This document shows, piece by piece, positions 1 to 11,315 of a stretch of 11,315 bases of DNA. Source of the DNA: Promethearchaeota archaeon (lineage in GTDB: Archaea > Asgardarchaeota > Lokiarchaeia > Sigynarchaeales > SOKP01); NCBI GenBank assembly GCA_014730295.1, contig WJIN01000218.1, positions 1-11,315 of the forward strand, written 5' to 3'. A program made the position numbers and the translations under genes. Position 1 is the first letter of the stretch; every line of letters starts with the position of its first letter. Under the pieces are notes generated by a model. It saw only the letters and a list, made by a program, of their open reading frames with translations. It had not been told where the DNA came from and did not search any database.

Positions 1-3000
1 ATATTGACATGGATTCTTGAATGTCTGAAGGTTTTAGCGTATTAAATGCCATTGGGATTATTTCTTGGCTAACCTCCCTACCTCCTAAAGCTATTAATGA
101 AAATCTAAATTGTCGATGAATATTAAATATCTGATTACGATTTTCGAAATCAAAAATACTTAAAAAGGCGTTATTATTTACCAACGTTCTAAACAAATCT
201 TGCATATAATAGTTCATAATAATTCCTGTTGGACAGACAATTCCTGTATAACCTTTTGAAGAGATTAGACGCCAAGATCTTTCAACAAATAGAGCATATG
301 TATTAATTGTTCCTTGAGATGATAAATCGAATAATCCAGAAGTACTTATATAATAATTCTGTTTTTGCATTGATTGCCAAGTTGTTTTATATTTATCAAA
401 TAAATCAATATTTTTCTCTTTGAGATTTTTTATTAAGCTTCTTCTTTCTGATTGGGTTTTTGCAGATGTAATTTCTTTACTTAATCCAGAAAAAAATTCA
501 TTTTCCATTAATCTTAATGTTTCCCATGGAGGGTTAGTTAAAATACAATCAAATCCGCCTCTTTCAGATGAAAAAACTTCAGGAAATTCCGCATACCAGT
601 GAAAAAATTGGTTTTCTTCTGCGATCTGGTCAACTTTTTGCATTAAGTCTTTTAATTGAACTTCGCTTTTTCCTTCTCTCAACTGTTCGATGATGGTGTA
701 ACTCGGGATGTTTCCTAATACATTTCCCTCAAAAGGCCAAAAAAAGGTGGAGGTCCATATATTTGCCTCATCAAGAGCTTGTTGGTATTGCTCATTTTCT
801 TTAAGCGATTCATATCTTGCTTCTTTTTCCCTTATTTTATCGGGATCTTCTTCGGACATGTCAATGATTTCTTGAAATTTTGCGCTGAAAATATCCGCCG
901 TCTTTTTCTGGGTTAAAAATGATGTAATCATGGTGGTTTGCCCCGCCTTTTTTCTCTCCTTAATCTCATCTCTTATAATTCCCCTAGCTTTATTTTGTAG
1001 ATCATTATTTTCCGGCTCAATTCCCGTGGACTTATTTCCCTTGATTGCCTTGAAAGCTTTAGGCTTAATCTTTTCAATTTTCATTTTCTGCCCCAAGCCA
1101 ATCAAGCTGTTTCCGCATTTAATGTGATTATCCAAGAAATTCAATGGCTTATCTTTTACACTGGCTCTTAACCATAAAGATATTTTAGCAAGCTCCACAG
1201 CGAGCGGATTCATATCCACCCCGTAGATACAGTGCTGAAGTACATCCCTTCGTGCGACTCGTAGATCATTTTCCAAGGGTGAGTCTTGCCCAGTTCTAAT
1301 TTCAGCAAGTTGTTTTCCCAAAAAATCTAACGCAGAAAGCAAGAAGGTACCACCTCCACAAGCGGGATCGCACACCTTAATGTTCATTATCGCATTTTCT
1401 TGATCTTTAAGGTCTTCACCTGCTTCTTCGAATCTATCTTCCACTAAAGGTTGGAGGGTGGTTCGGATTAAAATATCAATTAATTCTTTGGGGGTATAAT
1501 AAGACCCCGTGCTTTTTCTTTCGGTGCCCTCGATTAATTGGAATTGAGAGTTTTCATCAATAAACGGCTTATAGTCCAACAAAGATTCGTAAATGGCGCC
1601 GATCTCTTCTTCCCGAATTTCTAAAAAGTTAATTCGCTGCCGAATATTATTGCTTTCGGTGGTGGTTAATAATCGCACGACTTTTAGGAGAGTATCATTC
1701 GAGATTTTTAAGTTGTTTTCCTTTATAATGGATAGATTTTTATCATCAAACAAGGCACCATCATAGGAGTTAATCCCGAGAAATTCGCTTCCCTTTCCAA
1801 CCAACTTGCAAGTGAGAAATAATTTATTCCATAAATCGTAATTTTTTTCTGCTCTGATGGGTTTTTCGGCCATCATTCGTAAGGCTGAAAGCGAGAATTC
1901 TTCAAAATACAAACTACCCGCCCCGGGAAGCATTTCTCGCTGTTCGGCATATAGAATAAATATGATTCGATAGATGATGCGCAGTAGCTCGGCATAGTAC
2001 TCCATAAGATCAATCCCTTCAGAGAGTACCAAATCCAAAAATTCAGAATTTTGCTGGATCAATTCATCTCCTAACAATTCCAAGGCGTCGTGAACATTGT
2101 CTCGAAGAGAATCACCCACTTTAACTCCCTCTTTTACCGCCTCTTGCTGAAATTCATCGATGAGAAATACTTGATCCTCGGGCTTTGCAATGAATCGACT
2201 CTCATGAATGAGCGAATATATGGTGTTAAATTCCTTAACGTCTCGATTGGCAAAGATATTTTCCAAATCAAATTCTATATATCCTTTCGAATAAGTATGA
2301 TAATACGTAGTGAGTAAGCGTAACATTCTCCCGTTAGAAAGAAATAACCACTTAATTTCTGGGTTAAAATTGACAAACTGTTGGCAAATGGCGTGATGCG
2401 TGCTCTTTTTGGGATTTTCTTCAATTTTACACTCAAAATCGTCCTGAATGCCTACAAAATGAAAGAAGGGATTTTCATGCCCTTTTGATTGAAAATTGAT
2501 TTCAAACCCAGCCAAAGGACTGTCGCCATCAATGTTTTCCGTTCGCATTTCAAAAGGTTCAATCTCATATCCAAACTGCGAGAAAAGGGGATTCAACCAT
2601 TTTTCAATCAATTCTTCCCGAGACCAGTCATCAATATGAGGAGAGATCTCATCCCATTTTTCGATGCACCATTCAAATAATTTCCTTCGCTCATCTTTAA
2701 ATCGTTTTCTCTCGGTGCGGGTATCTTCTTCGATAAAAGACTCAATCTTGCCTATTTCCAATTGTTCGGGATTATCCCGTAGCCTCAATAAGATATTTTC
2801 GGTAAATAAACCGCCGCTGAGATTAATATGGCGTAAAGGAGTTAAATCATCATCTTTAGATGTTAGAGAGGATTGAATCGCTTTAGATTGAACGTTTTCC
2901 GAACCTCCCGTGGAATCATTCCCGGAATCATCATTTTTCGGAGGGTCGGTTTTATACTCTTTATGCTCTTCGTAAATGTCCCCCCTCACGTGAAAATGGT

Positions 3001-3031
3001 CGCACTTGCTACAATAATATTTTTTTGGCAT
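1..3031 (-). CDS. Eco57I/PglX-class adenine-N6 DNA methyltransferase, DrmMI-like (3' end beyond window)
   Basis: This is a large DNA adenine methyltransferase that transfers methyl from S-adenosylmethionine, probably the modification subunit of a DISARM-like system. I translated it by hand as 1010 uninterrupted codons to the left edge, where it is still open. The start is ATG at 3031, with AGGAAG about 8 bases upstream overlapping the previous gene's stop (gap 14 bases), so it is the next operon gene. Residues 7-23 form a possible zinc finger (C7, C10, H12 or H14, H23), followed by a Ser/Asp-rich linker. The conserved body begins near SGGLFTEN (72-79). STGSYYTP precedes the SAM-binding motif DPACGGGTF (555-563), then YGVDMNPLAVELAKISLW, and the catalytic NPPW at 833-836. 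After NPPW the sequence has a PglX-like pattern (STSGLFDL, then NTYALFVERSW, then VCPTG). Bases below about 600 are much more AT-rich than the rest of the gene. The assignment as a methylase is firm; the system name is inferred. Confidence 0.9.
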   Translation of the reverse strand, partial: MPKKYYCSKCDHFHVRGDIYEEHKEYKTDPPKNDDSGNDSTGGSENVQSKAIQSSLTSKDDDLTPLRHINLSGGLFTENILLRLRDNPEQLEIGKIESFIEEDTRTERKRFKDERRKLFEWCIEKWDEISPHIDDWSREELIEKWLNPLFSQFGYEIEPFEMRTENIDGDSPLAGFEINFQSKGHENPFFHFVGIQDDFECKIEENPKKSTHHAICQQFVNFNPEIKWLFLSNGRMLRLLTTYYHTYSKGYIEFDLENIFANRDVKEFNTIYSLIHESRFIAKPEDQVFLIDEFQQEAVKEGVKVGDSLRDNVHDALELLGDELIQQNSEFLDLVLSEGIDLMEYYAELLRIIYRIIFILYAEQREMLPGAGSLYFEEFSLSALRMMAEKPIRAEKNYDLWNKLFLTCKLVGKGSEFLGINSYDGALFDDKNLSIIKENNLKISNDTLLKVVRLLTTTESNNIRQRINFLEIREEEIGAIYESLLDYKPFIDENSQFQLIEGTERKSTGSYYTPKELIDILIRTTLQPLVEDRFEEAGEDLKDQENAIMNIKVCDPACGGGTFLLSALDFLGKQLAEIRTGQDSPLENDLRVARRDVLQHCIYGVDMNPLAVELAKISLWLRASVKDKPLNFLDNHIKCGNSLIGLGQKMKIEKIKPKAFKAIKGNKSTGIEPENNDLQNKARGIIRDEIKERKKAGQTTMITSFLTQKKTADIFSAKFQEIIDMSEEDPDKIREKEARYESLKENEQYQQALDEANIWTSTFFWPFEGNVLGNIPSYTIIEQLREGKSEVQLKDLMQKVDQIAEENQFFHWYAEFPEVFSSERGGFDCILTNPPWETLRLMENEFFSGLSKEITSAKTQSERRSLIKNLKEKNIDLFDKYKTTWQSMQKQNYYISTSGLFDLSSQGTINTYALFVERSWRLISSKGYTGIVCPTGIIMNYYMQDLFRTLVNNNAFLSIFDFENRNQIFNIHRQFRFSLIALGGREVSQEIIPMAFNTLKPSDIQESMSI

Positions 3032-3045
3032 TTTTTCTTTTCTTC

Positions 3046-6000
3046 CTAAGTTATAAAATTCCTAACATATTCAATTTCATCAACATTTAAATTATATAAA
3101 TCAAAAATGATTTCATCAATCTCATTTTCCAAATCTTCATTCTGTTCATTTTGAATTAATTCTTGAACCCTTTCTGAAATTCCTTCTTGATTTTCTCTTA
3201 AGTATAGGGGAATCGGTAAATTCTTAATATTTTCTAATAAAATTCTTGGAAAAAGGTCCTTTTCTTTATACATTATTGTAAAGTAGAAATTCATTAACTG
3301 TGAATTGAGTACACCCAGAATGCTATAATAGTTATAATCTTCATCAATTAGTTTTATATTATATATAGACTGAATTGTTATGAAATTATCATTCATATCA
3401 ACCATGGCATTAATAGAATCCCCAAGCTGTCGCATTAAAATTTTTGGTGATGGGTATAAGTCTTTTTTTTTCACTTTTTCTAAAGGGAGATATTTCTCTG
3501 AAAAATCAATTTTATATCTTTTAACATCTTCACCTCTAATTAATTTCTTGTTTGTAGATGTTGGCAAATCTTCAATTAATTTAGAAGTTCGCCCCATTTC
3601 CTCTCCTCTATGAGCATCGATAATATCTCCAAATAAAAAAGAGTTCATTCTTATTTTCTCAAGGATTTCTCTTACATTCTCGTTTAAAAAAAGAATCCGA
3701 GACTTAGGAAGTTCTAACAAGAATCTTTGTGGAATTGAAACATTTTCACCGAGATTATTCCGAAAGTCTTCAAGATCGGCATAACGAGAAAATGAGAGTT
3801 GATTTTCTTCATTTGGGTTTATTTTTTGTAATATTATTATTATATTTGCCACGCTAGCATCGGCAAACACATTGTTGATCTGGATTATCTTTTTTATTGT
3901 TGTATTAATCAATAAGAATGACCTAATAAATTCAAAACTACTTCGTCCTAAAAAGGAATCAGGAATAATTAATCCCATTCTCCCCCCTTTTTTTAACAAC
4001 CTATAACATCTTTCTAAAAATAAAGAGTAAAGATCATATTGTCTAACAGCTGATTGAAAACTTTTCTTGTAGTAATGCTTTTCTTCAATATTAATTTCCT
4101 TTGAACTTATATAAGGTGGATTAGTAATAATAATGTCAAAGCCTCTTCTCTTTCTTCTGAAAACTTCAGGAAACTCTAAGAACCAATGGAAGAAGTAATT
4201 TATCTGTGCGATCTGGTTTGCCTTTTTCAAAATCTCCTTGCTCTTAGCATTTATGATTCCCTCTTTGAATTCATCTAAAATGGTATTATTTGGATAATTA
4301 TTTAAGGATTCTTCTTTAATAGGCCAAAAATAAGTGGCTATATTTGAGTTACTTACATTCAATAGTTTTAAGAAATTCTTTCTTTTACGCAACCGTTTAT
4401 ATTCTACTTCTTTTTTCTTAAAATCTTTAATATCTGTTTCATCCATCTGTAATAACTTTTGAAATTTATCCAAATCCGAAATTAAATCTTCTTTTCCTGA
4501 GGTAAAAGAAGTAATGTGCATAACTTTTTTCTCAGATTTAGATTTCAAAGCTACTTCCTTTTTTATATGATTTTTTAGTTTTTTATAATCAGGTTTCAAA
4601 TCCTTATTCGCTTTATTTGGAGCTTTAAAATTTTCGGGTTGGATCATTAAATCTTTACCATATGCTTCCAATCCAATTAAAGAATTACCATTTTTGATGT
4701 GGTTATCTAGAAAATTGAGTGGTTTATCGTTAACACTTGCTCTTAACCAAAGCGAAACCTTCGACAGCTCAACTGCAAGCGGATTTCTATCTACGCCATA
4801 AATACATTTCTGAAGTACTTCTCTTCTCGCTTCTCTTAAATTTTCCTCAGAATTTATTTCAATTTCAGTATTAATTTCCGCTATTTTCCTTCCTAACAAA
4901 TCCATAGCAGATAGTAAAAAAGTACCTCCACCACATGCAGGATCACATATTTTAATTTCTTTCAGTTTATCTAATTTATGGTCAGACTTAATGTCACTTG
5001 ATTCTATCTCATTTATTGTTGATTCTAATGTGGATTTTATCAATAAATCTACAACACTTTTTGGTGTATAGTAGGAACCAGTACTTTTTCGATCATCTCC
5101 TTGAACCAATTGAAAATGAGAATTATTATCGATCTCTGGTTTATAATCAAGGAGTGATTCATAAATCGCACCAATCTCCTCTTCACTAATTTCAAGAAAG
5201 TTGATTTTTTGAAGCACATTATAGTTTTTTGATGTAGTTAATAATCTGATTATATTTAATAGGACATCATTACATACCTTAAGGTTATTATTAATAATTA
5301 TAGGTATAAAATTATCATTAAATAAACTTCCATTGAAGCAATTCACATCTAGTAAAGCATTCCCTTTATCAACTAATTTAAAAGTCAGGAAGAGCTTATT
5401 CCATAGGTCATAATGCTTTTGTGTCTTTATTGGTCTTTCTGATAAATATCTTAGTGAAGAAAGAGAAAATTCCTCGAAATAAATCGAATCAGTCTTTGGT
5501 AGCATCTCTCGTTGTTCTGCGTACAATAGAAAGATCATTCTATAGATAATTCTCAATAGCTCAGCATAGTATTTTTGAATATTAAAACTATTCTCAAGTA
5601 TTTTATCATAGAATTTTGAATTTTGTTGGATAAGTTCATCCCCTAATAATTCTAAAGCATCGTGAACGTTATCTCTGAGGTTATCGCCTATTTTTACACC
5701 TTCAGTTATAGACTCTTTTTGAAATTTCTCGATTATGGAAATATTTTCTTCAGAATCCAATATAAAATTATTTCTATGGATTGTATTATATAAAACGTTA
5801 AATTCTAATTCATCTCTATTTGCAAAAATGTTTTCTATATCAAATTCTAAATACCCTTTAGAATAATGATGATGATATGTAGTCAAGATTCGTAGTAGCC
5901 TTCCGTTAGAAAGGATTAACCATTTTATATCCTTTACAAAATTAATATATTCCTGACAGATATCATGATGAGAATCTTTTTTAGGATAATTGTTAATTTT

Positions 6001-6443
6001 AGAATCAAAATCTATGTTAACATTAATGAAATGAAAATATGGATTGTTATTTCCTTTAGACTGATAACTTAATTTGAATTCAGAGAGTGGATTATCCCTT
6101 TCGAATAGCTCAGGTTCAGGAGTGAATGGTTCTAAATCATAATTAAAACACGAAAAAAATGGGAATAACCATTTTTCTGTTAAATCTTCTAATTTCCATT
6201 TATCAATAATAACTGATATCTCGTCCCATTTTTCTACACACCATTTGAAGATAGATCTTCGTTTTTTTATAATATCTCTCCTATCTATTCTTTTATCCTC
6301 ATCAATAAAAACACTTAATTTCCCTAATTCTGTTTTCTCTGGGTTATCTCTTAATCTTAATATAATATTTTCTGTAAAAAGTCCTCCGCTCGGTCTAATG
6401 TTCCTGAGAAGTGAGTTTTTAGAGGTTATTTTTTTTCCACCAT
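3046..6443 (-). CDS. Second Eco57I-class adenine methyltransferase, paralogue of its neighbour; start out of frame at an A8 run
   Basis: This is an adenine-N6 DNA methyltransferase closely similar to the downstream gene over its first two-thirds. The body from TTG 5886 gives 946 residues with the SAM motif DPACGGGTF (315-323), YGVDRNPLAVELSKVSLW and catalytic NPPY (589-592). The tail (YDLYSLFLERCYRLL, then GLIIPDSFLG) is typical of Eco57I/TaqI-type enzymes. TTG 5886 is not the true start: hand translation of 5887-6428 in the same frame is open and aligns with the paralogue (for example SGGLFTENIILRLRDNPE, CVEKWDEIS, ILSNGR). That extension has no ATG, GTG or TTG. The only nearby ATG (6443) is one base out of frame across an A8 run (6429-6436). 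Nine A's would give a protein of about 1132 residues starting MVEKK. There is no SD before this ATG. The gene lacks the paralogue's zinc-finger N-terminus and is AT-rich (hand counts of 11-17 GC per 60 bases). It may be intact by slippage, phase-variable, inactive, or misread in sequencing. Confidence 0.85.
6429..6436 (-). other. A8 homopolymer separating the ATG from the methylase reading frame
   Basis: On the coding strand the sequence reads ATG GTG G, then eight A's, then TAACC. From the ATG at 6443 this gives M-V-E-K-K and a stop. One added A (or a -1 shift on the run) would join the ATG to the long methylase frame (ITSKNS onward), which matches the paralogue's LTSKDD. The run is seen directly; its role as a switch or slippage site is inferred. 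Confidence 0.6.
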
Positions 6444-6448
6444 TTAAA

Positions 6449-6459
6449 TTTTTTTTTTT
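6449..6459 (-). repeat. A11 homopolymer between helicase stop and methylase ATG
   Basis: On the coding strand the helicase stop TAA leads straight into this run of eleven A's, which ends six bases before the ATG at 6443 where an SD would normally sit. The position leaves no SD for the methylase. The run is also a place where length could vary by replication slippage. No function is shown. Confidence 0.5.
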
Positions 6460-9412
6460 ATTTTAGTTCAGGATAGATTAGAGTAATGGTAATTAAATCT
6501 ACGCCGACAATATCTATATCATCAATTCCTTCCAAGTCAGTGGCGATTCCTTGCTCTTGTAGATTCTTTATCATCGCCCGGCGTTCCTCTATTACTTTCG
6601 CCCTCCGTTCACTTCCTACTTCTCGTAGGAGTTCCTCAAGATTTGGTAATTCCAATGCCGATTTCAAATGCTTTTTTAACTCGATATCAATCTTACCATG
6701 ATTATTCCAATCCGAATTCCATATACTTTCCACGACTTCCTCATTCAGTTTCGTCTTGCCAAACAGGTCAACGCCGAAATTAATTATCTCTTCCATCAAC
6801 GTCTTAGGTTTAGTATTAACCACGTATCGTATCTTCACATGGAAGATTGCAGATACTTTTTTCGCTTCCATGCTTATGAATGCCGCCGTTCTCCCGTAAA
6901 ATTCATTTTCCACCGAAAATGCTTCATTCTTGATTTTTTCCACTAATCCCGACACCACGGGATTTTTAAGATTGACCCCCTCAATGTCGCTTCGAGAGGC
7001 ATTTACTTCCCTATTGGGTGTTATCAGATATTCCCTTCCGAGATCGACTCCAATATCCTTTTGAACAGGATCTGGCAGGTTAAGATTATAAGCTTGAAGG
7101 CGTTCATTCTTCAGTTCCATGGTCCCTGCGTAAAGATCCGCAGCTTTTTTCAAGAATTTTAGGAGTGTTTCTTCATTTCCGATGTGTTGTTGCGTAAATC
7201 GCATCCTTTCTTCTATTTCTCGGAGATTGATATTGGTATGCCCGTAAAATGAGTCTTCGACCATTTCTTTTATCTTTTGCTCTGAAAAGAAAACCGAGAT
7301 CAGATCCTCTACTTTAGAAGAGAAATTAAGCCATTTATCCAAGGTGCTTTGCGTGTCTTGCGTTCCTTCTTTCTCGCGTTTTGCCCTGATGTGATCCACC
7401 ACTGCTTCGGGGTCGCCGAAAAACCCGGGAACAAATCCGTAGGACTTTTTAATCTCATATGCCTTCTTTACCAGTGTTTCCAAGATATCCATTTCTAAGG
7501 TGTCTTTCATGATCAAGGTTCGAATATACACTTTCTCTTTTGGCTGCCCAAATCGATCAATCCTGCCGTTTCGCTGCTCTAAGCGATTCGGATTCCAGGT
7601 AAGTTCATAATTGATGACTTGGTCTGCGGAAAATTGCAGGTCAATTCCTTCTGCCATGCAATCGGTAGAAATTAGGATGGCTTCTTCTGATTTTAAAAAA
7701 TCGTTATAGATATCTTGCCTGTGCTGGGAAGCCATCTGACCGTGGACGGCATAAATTTCAAAATCTTTAAATTTTAAGGTCTTATCCTTTTTTTGGAGTA
7801 AATTTTGCTTGATATAATTAAGAGTGTCAATATAACGGGTAAAAATAATCACTTTTTTTGAGACCTTGAACCGATTGGGCAATATTTTATCCACCAAATC
7901 AATCATTTTATTGTCTTTTTTCTTTAATTCCGAAGCTGCTTCTTTTGCCTTTTTCAGTAAATCTTTTTCTTGGCGTAAATCGTCCATGGTCCTAGTCAAG
8001 ATTAATTTATCATTTCGAAGGTCTAATTCCTCTTCGGATAATCGATCGGTTTCATAGCCATCCATGACGGATTGTGCCGCTTCTTGAGACGAGAGTAAAG
8101 AACTCGGATCTTGAATGGCTTGGTAATTTTTCTGTAATTTTTTATCTATCTCGTTAATTCTATTATCAATGGAACATTCCAACGCATGAGGCGAACTAAT
8201 GGCTCGTTTATGGAAGTGGAGTATTGTCCAAATATTTAGCTTTTTTTCTTTAGAAAGAGTTTTTTCCGAACGCTGAAGGACGTGATCTGAGAATCTATTC
8301 AACGCTTTCATGCAATCAATAAACTGTTGGGAGGGTGTAATATATATTTCATCTGAATCTCGTTCTGGGAAGGGATTTTTGTTGTATTTACTTCCTTTTA
8401 TCCAGTCTTCCACGTCTTGCCGCCGCCTCTGGCAAATATGGTTAACCGCTAAATCTTTATTAATAATATAATCATGAGAGCTTTCCGAAGTCACCATCTT
8501 AGGATTAATCATTTCGAGGATGCTACAAAAGGAATCCTTATATCCATTATGGGGCGTGGCACTTAATAATAATAAATGCGGATATTTGTCCGCCAAATTT
8601 TTCGCAAAACCATAACTTTGCTTGAAACTCTTAGAACTCTCATCATCCGTGCCCAGATGAGGCCGCATGATGTTATGAGCCTCATCGATAATGATCATGT
8701 CCCAATCAAACTGGATGATTTCTTCTTTTACTTCGGGACGTTTCGCATAATCCACGGATACGATGATGGAATTATAATACCCCCAAGGATTACCCCCGAC
8801 CAATAATTCAGATTCCAACCTCCGCCTATTTCTGCGGGACATGATGACAGCATCAATTCCAAAAAATCGCTTGAGAATTGCTTGCCACTGCTCCCTAAGG
8901 TTAGCGGGCACCACGATCAAGACACGATTGATGCGTTTTCGCCCCATGAGTTCTTGCAAGATCAATCCCGCTTCGATGGTCTTACCGAGCCCGACATCAT
9001 CAGCCAATAGTAATCTAACGTTCTTAAAGTTCAACGCCATCAGCACCGGAACCATCTGATATGAGATAGGGATGACTTTGGAATTTTGCAGGCTAATAAA
9101 AGAAGTAGTGCCATAAATTAAATCCAATTTAATGGCATCCAACAGCAATTTCTGATAGACGGGCGATCCTATTTTATCTGGTTCAGGCCTCGGAACGACT
9201 GATTTTTTGATCGGTTCGATATTAGGTACTAAAATCTGCGTGGACGGCTGTCCAGTTATATTGCTTACGGAGTATGTTATAAAGGTCTTTTTTTCCGCTT
9301 CAATTGTCTTTTCCACAGGTGTGATTCTATCTATTCGCCACAATCTGTCCCGAGCTTCAACAATTTCGCCAATATTAAACTCGGGAAGCACTTTTTTAGT
9401 AGATTCGGTCAT
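6458..9412 (-). CDS. drmD: SNF2/RapA-type helicase, DrmD-like (DISARM class 1)
   Basis: This is a superfamily 2 DNA translocase expected to act with the adjacent methylases in recognising or processing unmodified DNA. Its 984 residues are close to the size I expect for DrmD. The N-terminus has a RapA-like small domain (GEIVEARDRLWRID, 15-28). The helicase core follows: DDVGLGKTIEAG (138-149, Walker A K144), VVPANLREQW, DEAH (243-246) and LLLSATPHNG (281-290). A long charged, probably coiled-coil insert covers about 415-505. The second RecA lobe has FTRY (524-527), STDCMAEGIDLQ (582-593) and EQRNGRIDRFGQ (612-623, motif VI). The last 350 residues are unassigned; no nuclease motif was seen. The start is ATG 9412 with GGAGGT at 9421-9426, 8 bases upstream. 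It is the first gene of the operon and ends 14 bases before the next ATG. It is GC-richer than the methylase that follows (28 of 60 at 7621-7680). The helicase call is firm; the symbol rests on the partner gene and is tentative, as the core drm genes are not visible. Confidence 0.88.
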   Translation of the reverse strand: MTESTKKVLPEFNIGEIVEARDRLWRIDRITPVEKTIEAEKKTFITYSVSNITGQPSTQILVPNIEPIKKSVVPRPEPDKIGSPVYQKLLLDAIKLDLIYGTTSFISLQNSKVIPISYQMVPVLMALNFKNVRLLLADDVGLGKTIEAGLILQELMGRKRINRVLIVVPANLREQWQAILKRFFGIDAVIMSRRNRRRLESELLVGGNPWGYYNSIIVSVDYAKRPEVKEEIIQFDWDMIIIDEAHNIMRPHLGTDDESSKSFKQSYGFAKNLADKYPHLLLLSATPHNGYKDSFCSILEMINPKMVTSESSHDYIINKDLAVNHICQRRRQDVEDWIKGSKYNKNPFPERDSDEIYITPSQQFIDCMKALNRFSDHVLQRSEKTLSKEKKLNIWTILHFHKRAISSPHALECSIDNRINEIDKKLQKNYQAIQDPSSLLSSQEAAQSVMDGYETDRLSEEELDLRNDKLILTRTMDDLRQEKDLLKKAKEAASELKKKDNKMIDLVDKILPNRFKVSKKVIIFTRYIDTLNYIKQNLLQKKDKTLKFKDFEIYAVHGQMASQHRQDIYNDFLKSEEAILISTDCMAEGIDLQFSADQVINYELTWNPNRLEQRNGRIDRFGQPKEKVYIRTLIMKDTLEMDILETLVKKAYEIKKSYGFVPGFFGDPEAVVDHIRAKREKEGTQDTQSTLDKWLNFSSKVEDLISVFFSEQKIKEMVEDSFYGHTNINLREIEERMRFTQQHIGNEETLLKFLKKAADLYAGTMELKNERLQAYNLNLPDPVQKDIGVDLGREYLITPNREVNASRSDIEGVNLKNPVVSGLVEKIKNEAFSVENEFYGRTAAFISMEAKKVSAIFHVKIRYVVNTKPKTLMEEIINFGVDLFGKTKLNEEVVESIWNSDWNNHGKIDIELKKHLKSALELPNLEELLREVGSERRAKVIEERRAMIKNLQEQGIATDLEGIDDIDIVGVDLITITLIYPELK

Positions 9413-9645: not shown

Positions 9646-10440
9646 TTATATCACACTCCTTTTTGGTAATCGTTCTAAGCATTTACATTCTAAATTCAGA
9701 TTATATTGAGTGAAATTTTCTACTATTTCTTGGTAAGTTATAATATTTTCAAATTTCTTCGAGAGATGATGACTTAAAGAGTTTTTTTCAGCAACTATAA
9801 TTATTTTTTTACCTTGTGTTCTTATTTCTCTTAAAAATGGCAGAAAATCTGCATCCCCGGCAATAATTACATACATATCTATTTCTGGATGTTGCTGCGA
9901 GTACATTCCAATATCAAATGCTATACGCGTATCTACCACATCTTTTTTCTTTCCCATTCCATTCTTAAGATGTGGTTCATTAATAAGTTTTAAGCCAGGT
10001 ATTGATTTAAGATACTTTCTCTGATTTTGCAATAAATTCCAATCACCATAAACCCGGAATTCGTTAATAACACCAAAAAGAGAAATAAAATCCTTAATTA
10101 ATGAGAAATTCGGATATCTATGAATTCCAGAGTTTCTAATAGAGATATCTAAATTGGGAAAATCACAGAATACGGCAACATTTTGTGTTCTTTTTAGTAA
10201 TTCTTTTAGAAGCTTGAATAACTTACTTACTCCTTTTAGAGCATCTTCCAACTCTTGCATGAAAGAATAAATATACTTTTTAACTTCTAATTTGGTGCCA
10301 ATTAAGTTAAATGATATGAGTTCAGGTAAGCTTAGATTTTTGAATAAAACTGCGCAATAATATGATTTTTTGTCCCTACATTTAAAGGAAGCTTTAAAAT
10401 TCTTAGTATAAAGGTTAAAAACTTCAGTCTCTTTTGTCAT
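9646..10440 (-). CDS. NYN-domain (LabA/DUF88-like, PIN-fold) putative ribonuclease
   Basis: This is a predicted metal-dependent ribonuclease of the NYN family, a cytoplasmic PIN-like fold. From ATG 10440 it has 264 residues. Residues about 1-84 form an N-terminal region I do not recognise, with a basic helical stretch (LFKLLKELLKR) near 75-84. The NYN domain covers about 87-240: VAVFCDFPNLD with D93 and N96, KKKDVVDTRIAFDIG with D167 and D170, and IIAGDADFLPFLREIRTQGK with D196 and D198. Together these give the usual acidic metal site, with the GDxDF signature intact. An upstream in-frame ATG at 10500 would overlap the ubiquitin-like gene by 59 bases. I prefer 10440, because AAGGAGG sits 8 bases before it and it follows the neighbour's stop by one base, which indicates translational coupling. 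The fold call is firm; RNA substrate and partner are unknown. The coupling suggests it works with the ubiquitin-like protein. Confidence 0.88.
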   Translation of the reverse strand: MTKETEVFNLYTKNFKASFKCRDKKSYYCAVLFKNLSLPELISFNLIGTKLEVKKYIYSFMQELEDALKGVSKLFKLLKELLKRTQNVAVFCDFPNLDISIRNSGIHRYPNFSLIKDFISLFGVINEFRVYGDWNLLQNQRKYLKSIPGLKLINEPHLKNGMGKKKDVVDTRIAFDIGMYSQQHPEIDMYVIIAGDADFLPFLREIRTQGKKIIIVAEKNSLSHHLSKKFENIITYQEIVENFTQYNLNLECKCLERLPKRSVI

Positions 10441-10441
10441 C

Positions 10442-10750
10442 TTATCCCCCTCCTTGAATTGCCATAATAGTGATGACATCTTTAGTTGGATGTATTCCAA
10501 TTTTAGAGATCTTCAGATTATCTGGTAAGACCTTGCCTTTGAAAATCAATTGGATACCAAGAATAGGGTTAAGTTTATATTCCTTTTGGATCGCGCCTTT
10601 AAATTCAGCTACGGAGAGATTTGGGACTTCTAAATTAAGTGCTTTAAAGGCATGAGTAGGGGGCGCTCCCGTCAATCTTGTTCTAAATGTTTGCTTTATT
10701 TCATTGGTTTTTATTTGATTTTTATTATTCAGATTCATTTTCATAACCAT
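10442..10750 (-). CDS. Ubiquitin-like beta-grasp protein ending in Gly-Gly-Gly
   Basis: This 102-residue protein has a ubiquitin fold over about residues 20-102. It can be aligned by eye with ubiquitin: FRTRLTG matches the first strand (IFVKTLTG), LNLEVPNLSVAEFKGAIQ the second strand and helix (ITLEVEPSDTIENVKAKIQ), IQLIFKGKVLPDN the strand with Ile44 and Lys48 (RLIFAGKQLEDG; equivalents I69 and K73), and VITIMAIQGGG the last strand and tail. A free C-terminal glycine tail is what E1-type activation needs, so it may be conjugated to proteins or act in sulphur transfer. There is an extra loop after the first strand (GAPPTHAFK) and a basic N-terminal extension of about 19 residues. No E1, E2, E3 or JAB protease is in the window. 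ATG codons at 10750, 10744 and 10738 are all possible starts. I chose the first because a TATA box lies about 30 bases upstream and no SD is present, fitting a near-leaderless mRNA. Confidence 0.87.
   Translation of the reverse strand: MVMKMNLNNKNQIKTNEIKQTFRTRLTGAPPTHAFKALNLEVPNLSVAEFKGAIQKEYKLNPILGIQLIFKGKVLPDNLKISKIGIHPTKDVITIMAIQGGG
10449..10454 (-). promoter_or_regulatory. NYN ribosome binding site inside the ubiquitin-like glycine codons
   Basis: AGGAGG on the minus strand is formed by the last base of the Gln codon and the first glycine codons of the ubiquitin-like gene. It lies 8 bases before ATG 10440, which makes that the best start for the NYN gene and couples translation of the two. 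Confidence 0.85.
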
Positions 10751-10773
10751 TTGTTTTTAATAAATTAAAACTG

Positions 10774-10790
10774 AATATATAATATATATA
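10774..10790 (-). promoter_or_regulatory. TATA box of the ubiquitin-like/NYN cassette
   Basis: A 17-base alternating A/T tract lies 24-40 bases upstream of ATG 10750. Archaeal transcription starts about 25 bases downstream of the TATA centre, so it would begin at or just before this ATG. That agrees with the absence of an SD. Confidence 0.6.
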
Positions 10791-10798
10791 CTCTGATA

Positions 10799-10830
10799 GG
10801 GACGGCAGTATAGGTTATAGGACATGTCCC
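10799..10830. promoter_or_regulatory. Candidate operator between divergent promoters
   Basis: GGACATGTCC at 10820-10829 is a perfect 10-base palindrome. GGGAC (10799-10803) and GTCCC (10826-10830) form a wider inverted repeat, and ATAGG occurs three times (10796, 10810, 10817). The element lies between the TATA boxes of the two divergent genes, so a dimeric regulator such as the neighbouring winged-helix protein could control both. This function is inferred. Confidence 0.45.
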
Positions 10831-10841
10831 ACTAACATAAA

Positions 10842-10856
10842 TATTTAAATTATATT
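10842..10856 (+). promoter_or_regulatory. TATA box of the winged-helix gene
   Basis: An A/T-rich box (TTTAAATTATATT core) is centred about 24 bases before ATG 10872, which has no SD. This fits a leaderless archaeal mRNA. Confidence 0.55.
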
Positions 10857-10871
10857 ATCTAATATTAACTT

Positions 10872-11315
10872 ATGAACATAAAAAGTGTTATACCTGACAA
10901 AATCCCAATTGAAATATTGGAAAGTGAAAGGTATGATCAATATGAAGTTTTAATCTTATACGCACTTGCGATAAATGGTCCGTTAAAACGAGAAAAATTC
11001 ATTAATAAGGAAGGAATTGACAATCGTATTAATAAAAACACATTTCATAAATACGCAAATAATTTACTCAAACAGCAATTAATTGAAAATTATCATGTAG
11101 GGAGAAAAAGTGAATATAAAATAACAACTAAAGGGGAAGACGAATTACTAAGACGATTAAAAGACTATTCCTTAGATTTTCAGACAATAAATAAACTTGA
11201 ACAAGAAAGAATAGAGAAGAAAATTCCAAAATTAATAAAATTCTTAGATGATTTCGAAATTGCGGACACAGAGATAAAATTAGAATTTTTAGATCTAATA
11301 AATGTAATTACACAT
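10872..11315 (+). CDS. Winged-helix DNA-binding protein (3' end beyond window)
   Basis: This open frame starts at ATG 10872 and reaches the right edge after 148 codons without a stop. Residues about 20-98 look like a winged helix-turn-helix: a helix (YEVLILYALAINGPLKREKF), a putative recognition helix region (NKNTFHKYANNLLKQQLIE), and a wing (YHVGRKSEYKITTKGEDELL), as in archaeal MarR/PadR-type regulators. From residue about 100 it becomes helical and charged (INKLEQERIEKKIPKLIKFL), which could be a dimerisation helix or the start of a helical repeat domain. It is transcribed divergently from the ubiquitin-like gene, with the palindrome at 10820-10829 between them, so it is a candidate local regulator. 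The DNA-binding fold is likely; the target and full length are unknown. Confidence 0.75.
   Translation, partial: MNIKSVIPDKIPIEILESERYDQYEVLILYALAINGPLKREKFINKEGIDNRINKNTFHKYANNLLKQQLIENYHVGRKSEYKITTKGEDELLRRLKDYSLDFQTINKLEQERIEKKIPKLIKFLDDFEIADTEIKLEFLDLINVITH

Follow-up and report, generated by a model that had tools for sequence, protein, structure and literature searches.

Gene content of the locus

The window, by which we mean the whole stretch of 11,315 nucleotides of Asgard DNA analysed for this report, carries a gene for a ubiquitin-like protein (Ubl) that is followed at once by a gene for a predicted NYN-domain RNase, together with a winged-helix (wHTH) regulator gene that diverges from the Ubl gene and a group of genes that resemble components of DISARM. 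The features discussed below are as follows.

2..3031, minus strand: drmMI-like methylase copy 1, cut by the window start
3046..6462, minus strand: drmMI-like methylase copy 2, Eco57I-type
6458..9412, minus strand: drmD-like SNF2 helicase (PADLOC DrmD, 368 bits), a neighbour of the Ubl-NYN pair
9646..10440, minus strand: predicted NYN-domain RNase, 264 aa, with the NYN domain at about 85-244
10438..10453, minus strand: Ubl-NYN junction, which reads Gly codons GGA GGG GGA, TAA, one base, ATG of NYN
10442..10750, minus strand: Ubl, 102 aa, with an N-terminal extension of about 22 aa and a GGG C-terminus
10751..10871, no strand assigned: intergenic region shared by the Ubl gene and the divergent winged-helix gene
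10872..11315, plus strand: winged-helix regulator, first 148 aa, cut by the window end; divergent to the Ubl gene

The genes of the minus strand are transcribed in the order Ubl, NYN, drmD-like SNF2 helicase, drmMI-like methylase copy 2 and methylase copy 1, with 233 bases separating the NYN gene from the helicase gene. The window Ubl passes the Pfam PF00240 model (31.3 bits against a cut-off of 25.4), and in the PDB its family profiles hit polyubiquitin chains as well as Mdy2, a ubiquitin-like protein. The NYN protein passes PF01936 (62.2 bits against a cut-off of 24.2), has the catalytic aspartates D93, D170 and D196 all intact and is matched by the PADLOC NYN model at 31.8 bits; from its homology and its active-site residues it is predicted to be a metal-dependent RNase. 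The N-terminal domain of this protein (residues 1-83) has a bbbb-alpha arrangement with no clear fold match, and a Pfam scan of the protein yielded no match over cut-off other than NYN. At the junction of the two genes, the ATG of NYN comes right after the Ubl stop codon with a gap of one base, and a Shine-Dalgarno-like (SD-like) GGAGG sits inside the terminal Gly codons of the Ubl gene, ahead of that ATG. An earlier reading of this DNA, made from its sequence only, had described a ubiquitin fold with a glycine tail, an NYN nuclease with an intact acidic site and a tight coupling of the two genes, and all three descriptions hold. The two genes are probably co-transcribed. The intergenic region upstream of them contains a TATA-like stretch and a 10-bp palindrome, GGACATGTCC, at 10820-10829, which is a possible candidate for an operator.

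In a tree of the Ubl family, the window protein groups with two others (P0014 and P0020, support 98/90) that share with it an N-terminal extension and a GGG at or near the end. This group stands apart from the core form of the family, a stand-alone protein of about 83 residues with an AGG end that is widespread in Asgard genomes. Residues L26, I69 and M96 of the window Ubl are invariant in a 30-row alignment of the family, and they probably correspond to the ubiquitin patch residues Leu8, Ile44 and Val70.

The genes downstream of the pair are defence genes that were absent from the finding of the earlier reading, and they resemble DrmD and DrmMI of DISARM class 1. The drmD-like gene reaches 405.5 bits with the NCBIfam DrmD model, under the curated cut-off of 610, and so falls short of a DISARM class 1 assignment; none of drmA, drmB and drmC lies within the window, whose edge cuts methylase copy 1. 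The frame of methylase copy 2 is open to about position 6462, yet it contains no ATG, GTG or TTG upstream of 5886, and the stretch 5887-6462 is mostly homologous despite the absence of such a start codon. At the six loci with the closest drmD relatives (38-73% identity), neither a Ubl nor an NYN gene occurs in the stretches fetched (0/6, including L152, where the contig ends about 300 bases beyond drmD on its upstream side), and one locus (L149) has the same drmD-methylase-methylase order as the window without the Ubl-NYN pair. At L148:3218-15510, a drmD-drmMI block, with its methylase split into two ORFs, is followed by a 1769-aa DruE/MrfA-like helicase, a mixture of DISARM-like and Druantia-like parts.

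Distribution of the pair and kinship of the regulator

The check on joint action that the sequence-only reading had put forward, namely that the pair should be kept across archaeal genomes, largely went against it. A Ubl gene and an NYN gene occur together at none of the 162 Ubl loci and at none of the 36 NYN loci that were fetched from 227 Asgard genomes, with flanks of 1.5-8 kb (less at contig ends) and with several loci sharing genomes; nor did a two-sequence profile detect a Zc3h12a-type NYN gene in the 162 Ubl loci. One genome (G098) has a Ubl gene and an NYN gene on the same contig, about 660 kb apart, and there is no sign that the 11 other NYN matches share a contig with the other Ubl matches listed (120 of 255 in one list). 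The pair has been seen once, on one contig. The lack of a second pair, taken together with the drmD loci that do not have one, indicates that the pair does not belong to DISARM and is not an operon general to Asgard archaea.

The families themselves are less restricted than the pair. NYN matches were obtained in 23 of the 227 genomes (E <= 1e-8), most of them distant, and Ubl matches in 69 (E <= 1e-5, a count that takes in fusions and a few weak matches); in a contig scan, all 65 of the loci encoding the Ubl family belonged to Loki- or Sigynarchaeal kin. The best NYN match in the 227 genomes (G098; L127:5452-12546) has a NACHT/STAND gene 361 bp upstream of it. The NACHT/STAND protein of that locus has an endonuclease-like N-terminus, and 26 bp beyond the NYN gene comes a 1027-aa protein.

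The absence of a conserved Ubl-NYN adjacency and the occurrence of the drmD block without the pair are both consistent with chance, by which a duplicated Loki Ubl gene and its regulator might have been inserted into a defence island next to an NYN gene to which they have no relation, with the small gap between the genes reflecting operon packing. Core Ubl genes, too, are often accompanied by a divergent wHTH gene (28 of 50 loci, at a distance of up to 700 bp) and by no NYN gene; the wHTH in question resembles the window regulator distantly (22.3 bits, E 3.3e-5 among 12,394 ORFs). Such an origin would be harder to reconcile with the tight spacing and with the SD-like sequence in the Gly codons, and it is also opposed by what adjoins the relatives of the regulator.

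The relatives of the window regulator that were scanned are wHTH-TPR proteins. A search with the window regulator matched 51 of the 227 genomes, with about 150 places among the matches listed. The best relative (G157, 61% identity) is encoded by a wHTH-TPR gene of 1066 aa that diverges, at a distance of 150 bases, from a gene for a Ubl fusion; the 578-aa fusion protein begins with this Ubl domain, is not fused to NYN and has a cysteine-rich end that matches no Pfam model and was read from its sequence as zinc-binding. Also close to this regulator are an SLFN_AlbA_2 gene and a TdeIII restriction endonuclease. The second-best relative (G117, 51%) diverges, at 100 bases, from a gene for a 189-aa PF11977 NYN RNase, which is followed by a HerA-type ATPase, and a distant relative (G100, 31%, at about rank 49) diverges, at 115 bases, from a gene for a 202-aa PF11977 NYN protein that is related to that of G117 and is followed by a PD-(D/E)XK-HerA protein. 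Next to the regulators of G112, G113 and G118 (45-48% identity), the divergent neighbour is a small ORF, read as a putative zinc ribbon.

When the fetched loci are taken as a whole, 28 of the 30 contain neither a Ubl nor an NYN gene by the profiles used, which accords with chance; the exceptions are G157 and G117. In a tree built from these 30 loci, G100 and the window, 15 distant loci form a group that separates with 100/100 support and the other 15 stay on the window's side, so that G157 and G117 represent 2 of 15 there; the G100 regulator falls on the same side, on a long branch. The regulators of the window and G157 are the closest pair, but their grouping is not firm, with support of 94/84 in one tree and no resolution in another. 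Comparison of contigs by eye placed a Ubl or NYN partner at three of the about 150 matches listed (G157, G117 and G100). On the assumption that, of about 3700 genes in a Loki genome, about 2 code for a Ubl or an NYN protein, the rough expectation by chance would be about 0.008 among the 15 nearest fetched loci, as against 2 observed, and about 0.08 among the about 150 places listed, as against 3 observed. The G100 locus was picked for its adjoining NYN gene and was counted only against all of the places listed; G157 was first found among loci fetched for the Ubl and is also the top match of the unbiased regulator search. Few of the regulator's kin adjoin a Ubl or an NYN gene, and they do so in defence-like surroundings; the two are joined in the window. 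Given that a Ubl or NYN gene adjoins the regulator's two closest relatives and also a third, we regard an origin of the pair by chance as rather doubtful.

The proposal of the earlier reading that the two proteins act together has consequently lost its simplest support, the conservation of the pair, and has gained an indirect one from the Ubl gene beside the G157 regulator and the NYN genes beside those of G117 and, more distantly, G100.

The NYN-HerA cassette, in which a wHTH-TPR gene is divergent to a Zc3h12a-type NYN RNase gene and a HerA-type ATPase gene, lies at L263:4226-11494 and L264:2613-8482, in two genomes, with a PD-(D/E)XK present in the L263 copy; this combination looks like a defence system. 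Near two distant wHTH-family members there is a different type of Ubl-like gene, of 84 aa (L261:10592-10846 and L238:505-759), which is not divergent to the wHTH gene and which, in the L261 copy, reaches 20 bits with PF00240, below the cut-off.

The Ubl as a possible switch of the RNase

The explanation that we favour, at a probability of about 0.42, is that the window contains a regulator-controlled, two-gene Ubl-NYN effector operon in a defence island of a Loki-type Asgard archaeon, and that the Ubl restrains or directs the RNase by binding to it. The divergent wHTH regulator would control the operon through the shared intergenic region and is probably a sensor, since the relatives scanned are fused to TPR repeats. 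The Ubl, encoded just ahead, would bind the NYN protein non-covalently, perhaps by way of the N-terminal domain of the latter, and would keep the RNase inactive, or direct it, until infection or stress. Translational coupling, through the one-base gap and the SD within the Gly codons, might keep the levels of the two proteins in step. Regulation would then be exerted on two levels, by the wHTH(-TPR) protein at the intergenic region and by the Ubl on the activity or the target of the RNase. Conjugation would not be required in this scheme, as no conjugation enzymes are seen nearby. Besides the domain matches, the spacing, the drmD-like and drmMI-like neighbours and the kin of the regulator, we count in its favour the divergent wHTH genes at core Ubl loci, with their distant similarity to the window regulator, and the NACHT/STAND gene near the NYN gene of G098. 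We infer both the binding of the Ubl to the NYN protein and the defence role of the pair.

An analogy to toxin-antitoxin pairs with the layout of VapBC can also be drawn from the order of the genes, the small one first and that for a PIN/NYN-type RNase second with one base between them, and from the defence genes that surround them. The upstream Ubl could be the antitoxin and the downstream NYN protein an RNase toxin, so that the Ubl would stand in the place of VapB. A Pfam scan, however, found no DNA-binding domain in the Ubl, and regulation may belong to the separate, divergent wHTH gene; moreover, the PF11977 NYN genes beside the same regulator family precede a large ATPase gene and have no small partner gene. 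A toxin-antitoxin pair of this kind seems to us unlikely.

Among prokaryotes, Asgard archaea are the nearest relatives of eukaryotes, and in the antiviral immunity of animals ubiquitin signalling comes together with NYN RNases, as in N4BP1 and KHNYN. Should the window indeed hold a Ubl-NYN operon that an immune-type regulator controls, one could test whether the link between ubiquitin and NYN is older than eukaryotes, and whether conjugation machinery is dispensable for the control of an RNase by a Ubl. The pair may be a switchable device that acts against viruses or in stress, akin to the known Ubl-associated and NYN-based forms of prokaryotic immunity. A broader proposal, that Asgard archaea possess a family of immune cassettes, each with a divergent wHTH-TPR sensor-regulator that controls exchangeable Ubl and NYN effectors, the window Ubl being a binding switch and an archaeal counterpart of the N4BP1 and KHNYN links, is one that we consider quite unlikely.

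Several known or newly recognized systems share parts of this arrangement. The NYN-HerA cassettes of G117 and G100 likewise have a related divergent regulator and an NYN RNase as their first gene, but consist of a PF11977 NYN and a HerA-type ATPase in place of a Ubl and a PF01936 NYN. The Bil and type II CBASS systems also place a Ubl in a prokaryotic defence setting; they are defined by E1, E2 and JAB partners, none of which is found among the six main ORFs of the window. In eukaryotes, N4BP1, which carries the ubiquitin-binding CoCUN domain (PMC6681339), and KHNYN are likewise cases in which an NYN RNase is functionally joined to a ubiquitin-fold protein in an immune context. In the window NYN protein a Pfam scan found no such domain, and the Ubl is encoded as its operon partner. 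KHNYN carries a NEDD8-binding CUBAN module that is related to CoCUN. A prokaryotic combination of a ubiquitin-fold domain with a PIN-related RNase is known as the Ubl-Mut7-C fusion (PMC1779556), in which a MoaD/ThiS-like Ubl is fused to a Mut7-C RNase, whereas the window has separate genes for a PF00240-type Ubl and an NYN protein. The CRISPR-associated NYN protein of a Bacteroides fragilis type III system is linked to prokaryotic defence and has the same catalytic triad as the window protein; its suggested role is crRNA trimming, and the accessible part of that paper mentions no Ubl partner (PMC11346440). No paper that joins NYN, ubiquitin and Asgard was found in the literature searched, and NYN, ubiquitin and DISARM are absent from the main text, in the parts available, of two surveys of archaeal defence (PMC11291487, PMC12988326).

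The core Ubl family and the question of conjugation

The sequence-only reading had also mentioned tagging by the Ubl, and this suggestion found no support: none of the six main ORFs of the window encodes an E1, E2 or JAB protein, which makes conjugation less likely. A covalent role could still be imagined if an E1-like enzyme encoded elsewhere on the chromosome activated the Ubl, which would then tag the NYN protein or viral proteins. The Gly-Gly tail, present in all 30 rows of the Ubl alignment, argues for such a modifier, as does a gene cluster, one scanned member of which belongs to the ThiF family, that is found no more than 8 kb from the core Ubl gene in 15 of 65 loci and makes activation by a chromosomal E1 possible. 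The ThiF-type gene is, however, 4 kb away from the core Ubl gene at L009, the single locus for which a distance is given, and together with the lack of E1, E2 and JAB in the window this leads us to consider covalent modification very unlikely.

The core Ubl genes have some peculiarities of their own. Among 66 distinct tails from L001-L065, all picked with a motif in which GG is obligatory, 20 stop at GG, 40 continue for exactly one residue and 6 for more, and the extra residues resemble those of ubiquitin precursors that need trimming. The same Ubl domain occurs inside a 3954-aa Loki ORF (L155:3-11864) and inside others of 317-1495 aa; in the seven large ORFs of this kind that were scanned, no Pfam domain besides the ubiquitin-like one was found at E <= 0.01. 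The core gene also has what looks, from its sequence, like a conserved non-AUG start: 17 of 58 genes (L008, L010-L014, L020, L021, L025-L030, L046, L047 and L052) lack any ATG, GTG or TTG in the stretch from the preceding stop codon to the conserved start, and the codon at the start position is ATT in 15 of them and ACG in 2, mostly behind a GTGA-type stretch.
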